The position numbers were made by a program, and so were the translations under genes. Positions 29,785-57,545 of a stretch of DNA of 64,000 nucleotides are shown here, piece after piece. Origin of the DNA: Rhodobacteraceae bacterium EL129. Its GTDB lineage: Bacteria > Pseudomonadota > Alphaproteobacteria > Rhodobacterales > Rhodobacteraceae. The notes under the pieces were generated by a model. It was not told the DNA's origin, did not search any database, and saw only the letters and a program-made list of their open reading frames with translations. Location: positions 3,569,909 to 3,633,908 of the forward strand of contig ONZJ01000002.1 in the NCBI GenBank assembly GCA_900313005.1, written 5' to 3'. How positions within the stretch are numbered: position 1 is the stretch's first letter; each line of letters begins with the position of its first letter.

Positions 29785-29799
29785 TTAACGAATGCTTAA
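29785..29799. promoter_or_regulatory. Perfect CtrA box upstream of the DivL-like gene
   Basis: TTAA at 29785-29788, 7 bases, TTAA at 29796-29799: all 8 consensus positions. Another TTAAC follows at 29816. The box ends 46 bases before the start codon at 29846, in the 98-base gap after regB. CtrA boxes are palindromic, so no strand is assigned. In alphaproteobacteria DivL controls the CckA-ChpT-CtrA relay, so this would be feedback. Confidence 0.65.
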
Positions 29800-49474: not shown

Positions 49475-50060
49475 CGGCCAGATCTGCTCTTATTTTCGCC
49501 ACCATATCCTGAACCTGCGCCCGTGCAGATTCAAGTGTGTCCGTTATGATCACATAATCTGCTTTGGCGCGCTTCTCGGAATCCGGCATCTGCTTTTGAA
49601 TGATCGCATTGAATTGCTCTGGCGACATTTGGCCACGCTCCAGCAGGCGTTTTCTTTGTTCTTGTGGATCGGTGCTGACAACCACCACGGCATCCATTTG
49701 GTCGGCTGCACCTGTCTCATACAGCAAAGGGATGTCGAGAACGGTGATGTCTGCTGTGGCTGTATTGGTAAAGTTTTGACGATCTTGGGCAACAAGAGGA
49801 TGAACGATGTCTTCGATCTTCTTCAGGTTTTCCGGGTTCGTCTTGATAAGGTCCTTCAACCTCTCTCTTGAAACAGAGCCATCCTGAATAGAAGATGGGA
49901 ACACCGCAGCCATAGGGGCGACTGCCGCTCCTCCTTTGGCATAAAGCTGATGCACCGCGGCATCGGCATCCCATAGAGCACATCCTTCAGCCACAAACAT
50001 TTTTGCTGTTGTCGACTTTCCCATGCCTATGGAGCCAGTCAATCCAAGCAGAAATGTCAT
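49467..50060 (-). CDS. coaE: Dephospho-CoA kinase CoaE
   Basis: 197 residues. Final step of coenzyme A synthesis. P-loop LTGSIGMGKSTTAKMF at residues 7-22, the DADAAVHQLYAKGGAAV substrate motif, and the lid LDIPLLYETGAADQMDAVVV are present. It overlaps aroE and dnaQ by 4 and 8 bases. Confidence 0.97.
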   Translation of the reverse strand: MTFLLGLTGSIGMGKSTTAKMFVAEGCALWDADAAVHQLYAKGGAAVAPMAAVFPSSIQDGSVSRERLKDLIKTNPENLKKIEDIVHPLVAQDRQNFTNTATADITVLDIPLLYETGAADQMDAVVVVSTDPQEQRKRLLERGQMSPEQFNAIIQKQMPDSEKRAKADYVIITDTLESARAQVQDMVAKIRADLADA

Positions 50061-50890
50061 CTAAGGGCCGCAGCGCGTGTTGCGCTATCCACTTCTGGAC
50101 GCACTCCGAACCAACGTTCAAATGCCGGCACAGCCTGATGCAATAACATACCTAGGCCATCCACCGTTTTACATCCCATTTCTTCTGCTTCGAGTAGCAG
50201 CCTGGTTTTGAGTGGGGCATACACGAGATCAGTCACCAGTGCATTTTTGTTCAAACCGTCCAGTGGTACCCTTAACGGGGGTTTGCCCATCATTCCAAGT
50301 GATGTGGTGTTCACTACAAGACTAGCCTCATCCAGCATGTTGCCGGCTTTGACCCAATCAAACACACGCAAGCGTTTACCAAAGTCTGTTTTCAAAGCGT
50401 CAGCACGCACCCTGGTTCTGTTAGAGATCAGAACTTCGGGCACACCCACATCTAGAAGAGCTGCAACAACAGCACGTGCTGCCCCGCCAGCGCCAAAAAC
50501 TGCAGCGGGTCCTGATTTGGGATCCCAACCCGGTGCATTCTGTTTCAGGTTTTGAATAAATCCATACCCATCCGTGTTGTCGGCATGGATCTTCCCATCC
50601 TTGCGGAAAATAAGCGTATTTGCAGCCCCGATCAAAATGGCCCGATCCGTCACCAGATCAGCGATCTCCATCACCTTTTCCTTATGTGGTACGGTGATGT
50701 TGGCACCGACAAATCCCATCTTGGCAAGTGTTCTGACCACATCCCCTAAATCATCTGATTCAACGTGTATGGGTATGTAATGCCCTTGAAGACCGTATGT
50801 TTTGAGCCAATGAGAGTGTAATTGTGGAGATTTGGAATGCGCGATGGGCGATCCGATCACTCCGGCAAGCGGGATTTTGGTATTTGTCAT
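50057..50890 (-). CDS. aroE: Shikimate dehydrogenase AroE
   Basis: 277 residues. NADPH-dependent step of aromatic amino acid synthesis. Substrate site AGVIGSPIAHSKSPQLHSHW at residues 9-28, catalytic lysine in ANITVPHKEKVMEIADLV, dinucleotide-binding AAVFGAGGAARAVVAALL and the C-terminal TVDGLGMLLHQAVPAFERWF are intact. Second gene of the maf-aroE-coaE-dnaQ operon. Confidence 0.97.
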   Translation of the reverse strand: MTNTKIPLAGVIGSPIAHSKSPQLHSHWLKTYGLQGHYIPIHVESDDLGDVVRTLAKMGFVGANITVPHKEKVMEIADLVTDRAILIGAANTLIFRKDGKIHADNTDGYGFIQNLKQNAPGWDPKSGPAAVFGAGGAARAVVAALLDVGVPEVLISNRTRVRADALKTDFGKRLRVFDWVKAGNMLDEASLVVNTTSLGMMGKPPLRVPLDGLNKNALVTDLVYAPLKTRLLLEAEEMGCKTVDGLGMLLHQAVPAFERWFGVRPEVDSATRAAALR

Positions 50891-51486
50891 TGATCCAACA
50901 CTCCACGGAGACCCAGGTAAACCAGTACTTCCAACAAAGGTATGCCCAGCACGGTGAAATAGTCACCCTTTACCTCTGTAAACAGTCTTACGCCCTCTTC
51001 TTCAAGTTTGTATCCACCAACGGCGTGTCGGACACTGTCCCAATTCCGTTCGATATACTCATCCAAGTAGGCTTCACTTTTGGTCTGCATTGTCATGGTC
51101 ACACGACCGACCGTGCGCCACACTGGTTTACCTGATTCATAGATCACAACGGCGGATAACAATTCGTGCGAGGCACCGCATAAGGCTTTCAATTGATCCT
51201 TCAGATCTTTCTTGTCCTTTGGTTTGGAAAGGAGCGTGCCGTTAAAACTCAGCACTTGGTCACATCCTAGTACCAGCGCATCAGGATGCTTATCGCTAAC
51301 CTTACGCGCTTTCATTTCCGCCAAAGTGTCGGCGATATCTCTCGCGGGCGCTCTCTCGGCTAACAAGGCATTCTTGATCGCGTCTTCATCAATACGTGCC
51401 ACGATACTCTCGTGTGGCACTCCAGCCTGAGAAAGTAATTTCCGCCTAATTTCGGAGCCTGATGCAAGAATGATTGGGATAGTCAT
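50887..51486 (-). CDS. maf: Maf-family nucleotide pyrophosphatase
   Basis: 199 residues. Hydrolyses non-canonical nucleoside triphosphates and can arrest division when over-produced in other bacteria. ILASGSEIRRKLLSQAGVPH is the N-terminal signature; ALVLGCDQVLSF, then DLKDQLKALCGASHELLSAV and the C-terminal GGYKLEEEGVRLFTEVKGDY match Maf. The ATG at 51486 overlaps a perfect DnaA box; the likely chromosome origin lies immediately upstream. Confidence 0.95.
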   Translation of the reverse strand: MTIPIILASGSEIRRKLLSQAGVPHESIVARIDEDAIKNALLAERAPARDIADTLAEMKARKVSDKHPDALVLGCDQVLSFNGTLLSKPKDKKDLKDQLKALCGASHELLSAVVIYESGKPVWRTVGRVTMTMQTKSEAYLDEYIERNWDSVRHAVGGYKLEEEGVRLFTEVKGDYFTVLGIPLLEVLVYLGLRGVLDQ

Positions 51487-51494
51487 GTGGATAA
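51486..51494 (-). promoter_or_regulatory. Perfect DnaA box
   Basis: TGTGGATAA on the plus strand, that is TTATCCACA on the minus strand, the exact DnaA consensus. It overlaps the last base of the maf start codon (ATG complement at 51484-51486), so DnaA binding there could also affect maf expression. Confidence 0.8.
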
Positions 51495-51507
51495 CCCAGT
51501 GTAGATC

Positions 51508-51522
51508 TTAATGAAGTGTTAA
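51508..51522. promoter_or_regulatory. Perfect CtrA box inside the putative oriC
   Basis: TTAA at 51508-51511, 7 bases, TTAA at 51519-51522: exact CtrA consensus. It lies 13 bases to the right of the perfect DnaA box. In Caulobacter, CtrA boxes in the origin repress replication. A weaker ATAA-N7-TTAA is at 51711-51725 in the AT-rich stretch. Confidence 0.65.
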
Positions 51523-51763
51523 GGAGAGGTGACGAATAAATCCATCGCCATCATGGTTATCCTCCGAGTCACCATCATTTCGTAAGAATGTGCGTTTCTT
51601 TTACCTCTGTGGAAATGAGTAACTCTGAAATTGGCTGATCTCTCTTTATCGTTAAACAATCCCTGATTTTTGCACAGTGTGATTCTCCTGGAATATGTTT
51701 AAATTACTGAATAATAACGATTTAATATAGCATATCCAATAATTTCCAATAGTCATCCACTCT

Positions 51764-51772
51764 TTTTCCACA
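51764..51772 (+). promoter_or_regulatory. DnaA box, one mismatch
   Basis: TTTTCCACA, one base off TTATCCACA, on the plus strand at the right edge of the AT-rich stretch. Confidence 0.55.
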
Positions 51773-51798
51773 TGTGTACAAAGCATGGCATAACGCAT

Positions 51799-51807
51799 TA
51801 ATCCACA
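51799..51807 (+). promoter_or_regulatory. DnaA box, one mismatch
   Basis: TAATCCACA, one base off the consensus, plus strand, 26 bases after the previous box and on the same strand. Confidence 0.55.
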
Positions 51808-51892
51808 GGTTTGGCCCCTACCTACAAATCACATCATCCTTTCTAATCTTTCTTTTTATTTATAGAGAGTGACCAGCAAGGAGTGCGTAGAA

Positions 51893-52342
51893 ATGAGTGA
51901 TCTTCTGGCCTCACTTTATCCGTGGACGAAGGCTTTGCATATTGTCTCGGTGATCTCATGGATGGCAGGGATGTTTTACCTGCCACGTCTCTTTGTCTAT
52001 CACGCTGAACAATCCAAACCCGGTGATGCACGTGATGAAGTGTTTCAGGAGATGGAACGTAAACTGCTTCGAGTGATCATGAATCCAGCCATGATTGCGA
52101 CTTGGGTTTTTGGTTTGATGCTCGCGTTCACACCAGGGATTGTCGATTGGTCTGATGTGTGGCCCTGGTTCAAAGGTTTTGGCGTTCTGGTTATGACTTG
52201 GGCGCATCATTGGTTGGCGCTCAGGCGTAAGGACTTTGCAATGGGTCAAAATACAAGACTCGGAAAAACCTATCGATTGATGAATGAAGTCCCAACCCTG
52301 ATGATGATCTTGATTGTCTTTGCAGTGGTCTTGCGCTTCTAG
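51893..52342 (+). CDS. hemJ: HemJ-type protoporphyrinogen oxidase
   Basis: 149 residues from ATG 51893; AAGGAG lies 8 bases before. Four membrane segments with the conserved histidine in YPWTKALHIVSVISWMAGMF, LPRLFVYHAEQ and the C-terminal TYRLMNEVPTLMMILIVFAV. HemJ oxidises protoporphyrinogen IX in bacteria lacking HemG and HemY-oxidase. It is the first gene right of the origin and is followed by rho. Confidence 0.93.
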   Translation: MSDLLASLYPWTKALHIVSVISWMAGMFYLPRLFVYHAEQSKPGDARDEVFQEMERKLLRVIMNPAMIATWVFGLMLAFTPGIVDWSDVWPWFKGFGVLVMTWAHHWLALRRKDFAMGQNTRLGKTYRLMNEVPTLMMILIVFAVVLRF

Positions 52343-55066: not shown

Positions 55067-55082
55067 TGTTTCACGTGAAACA
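55067..55082. other. parS: parS centromere site 1
   Basis: Perfect 16-base palindrome TGTTTCACGTGAAACA, the canonical ParB-binding parS. It spans the start codon of mnmG, so codons 1-3 of mnmG are part of the site. parB is at 58363-59259. Confidence 0.95.
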
Positions 55083-56937: not shown

Positions 56938-57545
56938 TCTCTCATGAAGAGATAGGTGTTTCACGTGAAACATTCGAGAGGCTGAAAACATACGTGGAGC
57001 TTCTGAAAAAATGGAATCCACGTATCAATCTGATTTCAAAATCCACGTTACCTGATGTTTGGGTCCGTCATGTCCAGGATTCAGTTCAAATCTCCAATTT
57101 GGCGCCCAAGCCCTGTAAAATATGGGGCGACTTAGGATCAGGTGGGGGATTTCCCGGGCTTGTTGTTGCAATAATGGCTTTGGAAACTGGGACACCAGGT
57201 CAGGTTTTCCTTGTAGAAAGTGACCAACGTAAATGCGCATTTTTGCGCACGGTAATCCGTGAAACTGGCGCGCGCGCTGAGGTCATAAACAAACGGATCG
57301 ATGAAGTAAAAGGTTTGAATGCGGATGTGATCTCTGCCCGAGCATTGGCCAGTTTATCCAATTTGCTAGAGTTCGCAGAAATTCACCTTTCTCCAAATGG
57401 CACAGCAATTTTTCCCAAAGGAGTGAGTTGGGAAAAAGAACTGATTGAGGCGCAAGCCCTGTGGAGTTTCAAACACCATGTTGTTAAAAGTCAAACTGAG
57501 ACGGGCCCCGTCATACTAAGCATCACCGGAGTTTCACGTGTCTGA
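56934..57545 (+). CDS. rsmG: 16S rRNA m7G527 methyltransferase RsmG (GidB)
   Basis: 203 residues. SAM-binding [18 protein letters not shown] at about residues 66-83 and [20 protein letters not shown] near the N-terminus define RsmG. Codons 8-13 (GVSRET) are encoded by parS site 2. It overlaps mnmG by 4 bases and the parA start by 8 bases. The last codons (GVSRV) contain a degenerate half parS. Confidence 0.96.
56957..56972. other. parS: parS centromere site 2
   Basis: A second perfect TGTTTCACGTGAAACA, 1890 bases after site 1, inside the 5' end of rsmG in a frame that reads VSRET. Together with site 1 it provides a two-site nucleation region for the ParB complex beside parAB. Confidence 0.95.

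Follow-up and report, generated by a model that had tools for sequence, protein, structure and literature searches.

Sequence comparison indicates that the CtrA-type box in the putative replication origin of Rhodobacteraceae bacterium EL129 is real, specific in its spacing and patchily kept among relatives. The box lies in a 64-kb stretch of DNA that was analysed as a whole and is called the window below. The initial annotation had claimed an exact TTAA-N7-TTAA with a perfect DnaA box 13 bases away and had estimated fewer than one such match per 64 kb by chance. These claims were borne out, as both TTAA are exact and 7 bases apart, 13 bases lie between the box and the minus-strand DnaA box, and 100 shuffles of the window gave a mean of 0.22 exact matches vs. 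the two that were found. At least two matches were reached in 2 of these 100 shuffles. The second exact match, absent from that annotation, lies upstream of a divL-like gene and was used as positive control (Table 1). When the maf-hemJ gap was shuffled alone, an exact match appeared in 2.6% of 3,000 shuffles. The origin box is beyond chance expectation.

Table 1. Features of the putative origin and of the divL-like locus, with positions in the 64-kb window.
Feature	Position	Strand	Evidence or remark
Second exact TTAA-N7-TTAA, positive control	29785..29799	+	Precedes the divL-like gene by 61 bases
divL-like PAS protein, 509 aa	29846..31375	+	Pfam PAS domains only; DivL by resemblance
maf (Maf family, PF02545)	50887..51486	-	Profile match
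Perfect DnaA box, TTATCCACA	51486..51494	-	Overlaps the maf start codon
maf-hemJ gap, putative oriC	51487..51892		406 bases, 37% GC
CtrA-type full site, exact TTAA-N7-TTAA, TTAATGAAGTGTTAA	51508..51522	both (TTAA is self-complementary)	Spacing controls, column test
Degenerate DnaA-box-like element, AAATCCATC (putative role)	51538..51546	+	On the far side of the CtrA-type box; alignment columns 52-58, 0.5-1.2 bits, 42 rows
AT-rich stretch, candidate unwinding element	51687..51766		GC content of 23% and 30% over two steps of 40 bases
Weak match ATAA-N7-TTAA in the AT-rich stretch	51711..51725		Unsupported as CtrA site
DnaA box with one mismatch, TTTTCCACA	51764..51772	+	Motif match
DnaA box with one mismatch, TAATCCACA	51799..51807	+	Motif match
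hemJ (UPF0093, PF03653)	51893..52342	+	TIGR00701, 137.4 bits, slightly below the cut-off of 138.05
Perfect parS	55067..55082	+	Inside the start of mnmG
Perfect parS	56957..56972	+	Inside the start of rsmG

The maf-hemJ gap as replication origin

The GC skew changes sign at the gap, from about -0.10 before it to values between +0.07 and +0.11 after it, a change to be read together with the divergent orientation of the flanking genes, which by itself shifts the skew there, and with the sign flips found elsewhere in the window (e.g., near 20, 36-44, and 59-62 kb). Along the chromosome, twenty stretches of 20 kb were compared. Their skew was positive at 3.68 and 3.86 Mb as well as between 0.5 and 1.5 Mb, was mostly negative between 1.7 and 3.5 Mb, and was weak or inverted at 0.1, 0.3, 2.1, 2.3, 2.7, 2.9, and 3.3 Mb. 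This places the origin at 3.5-3.68 Mb and the terminus at 1.5-1.7 Mb; the maf-hemJ gap is found at 3.62 Mb.

The DnaA boxes occupy preferred places in the gaps of relatives. Considering boxes with at most one mismatch in 176 distinct gaps, those on the minus strand peak at the start of maf, where the bin from -5 contains 94, and those on the plus strand bunch family-wide at 100-76 bases before hemJ, with 58 in the bin from -95. Many gaps retain the DnaA box lying across the start codon of maf, and the N-terminus of Maf is thereby tied to origin function. After hemJ, the ORFs were read as rho, mnmE, mnmG, rsmG, and parA; maf, hemJ, rho and the ParA-like ORF were checked against profiles, and the others are presumably mnmE, mnmG, and rsmG. 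This order, together with the neighbouring maf-aroE-coaE-dnaQ, resembles what we take to be that of Caulobacter. The sites at 55067 and 56957 were called parS from the consensus that we assume for this element, and both are within coding sequence, so that partition sites are written into genes.

The gap therefore has the features of an alphaproteobacterial oriC in silico, namely the change of GC skew, conserved DnaA boxes, an AT-rich stretch, two perfect parS sites with parA nearby and the gene order, and the earlier placement of the box inside the origin is supported. The gap also contains two GANTC sites and one IHF-like match, with one mismatch with respect to the consensus that we presume for this protein. 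No Rfam element reached its gathering score between positions 50000 and 53500, and relatives of HemJ sought among viral contigs were not found.

Distribution of the origin box among relatives

The origin loci taken were 198, of which five had no maf match (L039, L055, L108, L120, and L196); the 193 usable ones were reduced to 176 after removing identical gaps. Genome contigs were those of the best 80 of 213 relatives. In a wider search of the family 263 of 295 genomes matched and, from the matches listed, 28 new loci were added along with 57 chosen down the HemJ score list; because of this score order the family sample is skewed to nearer relatives. The hand-chosen set also held three places of the genus. 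The 36 genomes of the genus, this one included, gave 31 gaps, since one had no HemJ match, two had poor matches only and in two maf was cut off by the end of a contig. Finally, a clade of 42 rows was read off a FastTree tree built on 249 columns and having many weak forks. All counts of rows among relatives given here are inflated by shared descent.

Spacing 7 is favoured close to maf. In the first 60 bases from this gene, exact TTAA pairs were found with spacing 7 in 11 of the 176 gaps and with spacing 6 in two (L102 and L104, both at offset 32), and no such pair appeared at the remaining 19 spacings between 0 and 20. At offsets 10-45, a range which narrowly leaves out both spacing-6 pairs, the exact pair was present in 11 gaps for spacing 7 vs. 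none for spacings 3-6 and 8-12. When one mismatch was allowed, the figures were 27 gaps vs. 1-8 at the other spacings. Under the looser TTWW rule the contrast shrinks, with 13 gaps for spacing 7, seven for spacing 6 and five for spacing 8. Considering whole gaps, an exact spacing-7 pair occurred in 20 of 176, vs. a mean of 2.6 and a maximum of 6 in 100 rounds of shuffling.

Ten of the 11 exact boxes near maf start at offset 21 or 22 from this gene, including the one studied here. Their carriers include Roseovarius gahaiensis, Roseovarius litorisediminis, Lutimaribacter pacificus, together with two strains listed under Roseobacter sp. The partner of this genome in the tree (L095) has an exact origin box, and the relative with the most similar HemJ (L094, 83%) has one with a single mismatch. 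Among the 31 same-genus gaps, this genome included, the box is exact in five, has one mismatch in seven and more in 19, so that 12 of 31 hold it within one mismatch. In the 176 gaps, a box within one mismatch at offsets 14-31 was found in 28 and was absent from 148, and on the rough tree of 176 rows this state changes at least 15 times.

The initial annotation had held that a box missing from close relatives that keep their DnaA boxes would speak against its proposal, and this was the situation in 19 of the 31 same-genus gaps; the DnaA box at the maf start, with at most one mismatch, was kept in 30 of these 31 gaps and in all 42 rows of the clade. The origin box is labile among same-genus relatives. 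Conservation across related genomes is consequently not general, but relatives do carry a box that is specific in spacing and close to maf.

The weaker ATAA-N7-TTAA at 51711, also mentioned in that annotation, is present, but its reading as a CtrA site did not survive the spacing control. At offsets 195-250, exact pairs with spacing 7 were found in six gaps vs. 0-4 for other spacings, and the figures with one mismatch allowed were 25 gaps vs. 11-37. As this AT-rich region shows no preference for spacing 7, the box was rejected as a second CtrA site.

Conservation of the half-sites

The spacers of the exact boxes vary (TGAAGTG, CAATTGT, CGAAGGT, CGGCTGT, GAGATGT, and others) and both TTAA remain constant. 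Since shared descent would have preserved the spacer as well, half-sites kept around divergent spacers are not explained by descent alone. In addition, the eight half-site columns jointly matched the commonest letters in five of the 28 genus rows, a count reached by only 2 of 6,435 eight-column subsets, itself included, and in eight rows of the 42-row clade, a count reached by 9 of 6,435 subsets.

The divL box and other CtrA-type sites in the genome

Thirty same-genus divL loci were obtained from 39 matching genomes and all of them, this genome included, had an exact spacing-7 pair within 300 bases upstream of divL, vs. zero or one for other spacings. Taking the nearest box of each locus, its start was 48-69 bases away from the start codon of the gene in all but one of the 30. 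Three loci (L240, L246, and L254) had two overlapping boxes upstream of divL. None of the NCBIfam models matched the divL-like protein of the window. Upstream of ctrA, no exact box was identified within 300 bases in any of 30 loci.

Genome-wide, 25 exact matches were found at spacing 7 and 95 at spacings 3-12 together, i.e., 70 for the nine other spacings in sum and about 7.8 for each on average. A backward control pattern gave 44 matches at spacing 7 of 385 over the ten spacings, with no excess. These counts and those upstream of divL indicate that selection acts on the motif here and across the genus. One exact box, at 1788995, precedes a cckA-like gene with, by inspection, the kinase-receiver layout of CckA. 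Other exact sites are near an autoinducer-binding LuxR-type gene, sensor genes and response-regulator genes, and several of the 25 are inside mechanically called ORFs or beside genes with no evident CtrA link; these neighbourhoods were read from a scanned subset of 9 plus 10 proteins.

A weight matrix trained on the 29 divL boxes of the relatives scored the origin box at 7.4, the divL box of the window at 16.8 and the box of the cckA-like gene at 7.95. Scores of at least 7.4 were reached at 43 of 927,076 positions in 464 kb, origin box included. The value for the cckA-like gene suggests that modest sites may still be targets, and the matrix probably over-fits divL. The extension TTAACC follows the second half in 27 of the 29 matrix boxes and is absent from the origin box. 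The diagnostic value of this extension is doubtful because none of the 25 exact sites of the genome carries it, and its use as a mark of real CtrA sites was dropped.

CtrA and its partners

The genome encodes a CtrA of the Rhodobacter type, identified by NF045991 with 424.7 bits vs. a cut-off of 350. Among its 12 matches to Trans_reg_C, one (L086) had been picked by sequence and was then scanned as CtrA. Directly upstream of ctrA and on the same strand (G000:C2:1758991-1760070), near the terminus placed by the skew, there is a gene for a DUF1153 protein, which we take to be SciP. GcrA is also encoded, and a flagellin gene is present. In a near relative (L317; G003:C2:1496600-1498000), ctrA is broken into two reading frames, with the break at about residue 133 between the receiver and the DNA-binding domains, which may be a real mutation or a sequencing error; this relative has an origin box with one mismatch and two boxes at divL.

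Comparison with known systems

The Caulobacter origin Cori is silenced by CtrA through five sites, and its boundary genes are COG1806 and hemE (PMC1914354). As in Cori, a TTAA-N7-TTAA is inside the oriC of EL129 near DnaA boxes, in a genome with CtrA, a CckA-like kinase, a DUF1153 protein and GcrA. Unlike Cori, there is only one exact CtrA site, it is 13 bases away from the perfect DnaA box and does not overlap it, although overlap with degenerate boxes is possible, and the boundary genes are maf and hemJ. Because multiple sites and an overlap with a DnaA box were sought and not found, the locus was not classed as a Caulobacter-type origin; it is at most a reduced version of it.

Hyphomonas neptunium offers a further case of a CtrA site near an alphaproteobacterial origin outside Caulobacter, with a CtrA ChIP-seq peak adjoining ori (PMC7200025); binding was measured there and the motif was found here. 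In the origins of Rickettsia and Wolbachia, which are obligate intracellular lineages, the number of CtrA boxes varies under a looser counting rule (PMC1914354); a range from none to several among relatives is shared with the present case. In motif and spacing, the origin box is like the promoters that CtrA targets in Rhodobacterales, among them those of divL, cckA, quorum-sensing and fla2 genes, and in this genome the motif recurs upstream of the divL-like, cckA-like and LuxR-type genes; cckA and divL are predicted CtrA targets in Dinoroseobacter shibae (PMC4046655). The origin box differs from the divL box, which was present in all 30 loci examined, in being patchy and 21 bases from maf.

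The initial annotation had also stated that CtrA control of replication is not an accepted feature of Rhodobacterales. This needs qualifying, since ctrA, cckA, and chpT mutants of D. shibae show altered chromosome numbers (PMC4046655); still, the passages drawn on from PMC4046655 and PMC6473078 name no direct action of CtrA at the D. shibae oriC. In the parts consulted of the respective sources, Rhodobacter sphaeroides is said to be without such control (PMC6315104), the CtrA of Brucella is cited as not binding the Brucella origin, and Rhodobacterales are proposed to have a CtrA circuit that is simpler (both PMC2877005). No description of a CtrA box in a Rhodobacteraceae oriC was found among the titles and abstract openings listed in searches of open-licence papers. 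Ori-Finder 2022 annotates CtrA sites automatically (PMC10225481), hence unreported predictions of such boxes may exist. The same source marks two possible CtrA sites in the origin of a species that has no CtrA, which makes the motif alone weak evidence.

Possible function of the origin box

The explanation that we prefer, tentatively and at somewhat under an even chance, is that CtrA has a genuine, if modest, site here within oriC, which selection has retained in this species and in scattered relatives and which would hinder DnaA assembly. It is favoured by the exact motif, by the spacing preference and the joint retention of the half-sites, by the CtrA, DUF1153 protein and GcrA that the genome encodes and by the presence of the same motif before the cckA-like and divL-like genes. 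Against it stand the patchiness of the origin box as compared with the divL box, its low matrix score, the unequal conservation of its halves and the smaller spacing contrast under the TTWW rule. Phosphorylated CtrA would occupy the box and, being placed between the maf-proximal DnaA box and the degenerate element on its far side, would hinder the assembly of DnaA. Origin firing would then be less likely in cells with high CtrA~P, and initiation would be damped. Since there is a single site and it is often lost, the probable outcome would be a tuning of initiation and not a strict block as in Caulobacter.

An unlikely alternative is that CtrA binds the box to serve the maf promoter, covering its likely -10 and start region and repressing maf with little effect on replication. 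The centre of the box lies 28 bases away from the start codon of maf, and the nearly constant offset of the exact boxes would fit a promoter element; moreover, the CtrA half-sites that repress in Caulobacter overlap the -10 region (PMC6180460). In R. sphaeroides, the fla2 promoters have their CtrA boxes by the -35 element, with 12-33 bases from the transcription start to the start codon (PMC6180460). The origin box is nearer to maf than this activating layout allows, which leaves repression of maf or an origin role. However, a constant distance to maf is an equally constant distance to the DnaA box over its start, and the box sits inside oriC. As both this alternative and the preferred modest origin site involve CtrA, its binding to the box is predicted to be rather probable, and an effect of the box on initiation is quite possible, if short of likely.

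The asymmetry of the box raises another alternative, also improbable, namely that a different protein or a composite element recognizes a core TTTA(A/G)G(A/G)A, with the left TTAA included in some lineages only and a partial likeness to a CtrA site. In the 42-row alignment, the right half and the G and A that follow are conserved more strongly than the left half: columns 34, 35, 37, and 39 reach 1.1-1.7 bits vs. 0.1-1.1 for the left half, and TTAA or TTAG is present at the right in 25 rows vs. TTAA at the left in 12. This argues against a symmetric dimer site, which does not predict such asymmetry, and the low score of the origin box with the divL matrix points in the same direction. However, the exact pairs at offsets 10-45 occur at spacing 7 only among spacings 3-12, and the two TTAA tend to co-occur, with both in eight rows, the left only in four, the right only in eight and neither in 22 (Fisher p 0.02, a test that ignores descent). 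CenR was considered as binder and rejected, as its motif TGA-N8-TGA (PMC9275681) has no match on either strand of the gap. The conserved core around the right TTAA (51518-51526, columns 32-40) is kept in many rows that have no left half.

Finally, a chance origin, by which an AT-rich gap yields the motif occasionally and near relatives share it by descent, would agree with the matches found in shuffled gaps and with the many gaps having no box, but this least probable reading is disfavoured by the spacing contrast close to maf, by spacers that diverge while the half-sites stay fixed and by separate clades that carry the box at the same offset.

Should the preferred origin site be correct, the sequences would point, rather doubtfully, to an origin that CtrA controls directly in some members of one Rhodobacterales clade, a control which would have been lost or gained many times within one genus while ctrA and the divL site stayed. 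A CtrA site inside oriC would give a direct route, confined to some lineages, to chromosome-number effects of the D. shibae type. Since the divL box is kept by relatives whether or not they have the origin box, the effect of a single origin site is open to study through a comparison of species or a small mutation. If true, these bacteria would form a natural series for watching how replication control is wired and unwired.
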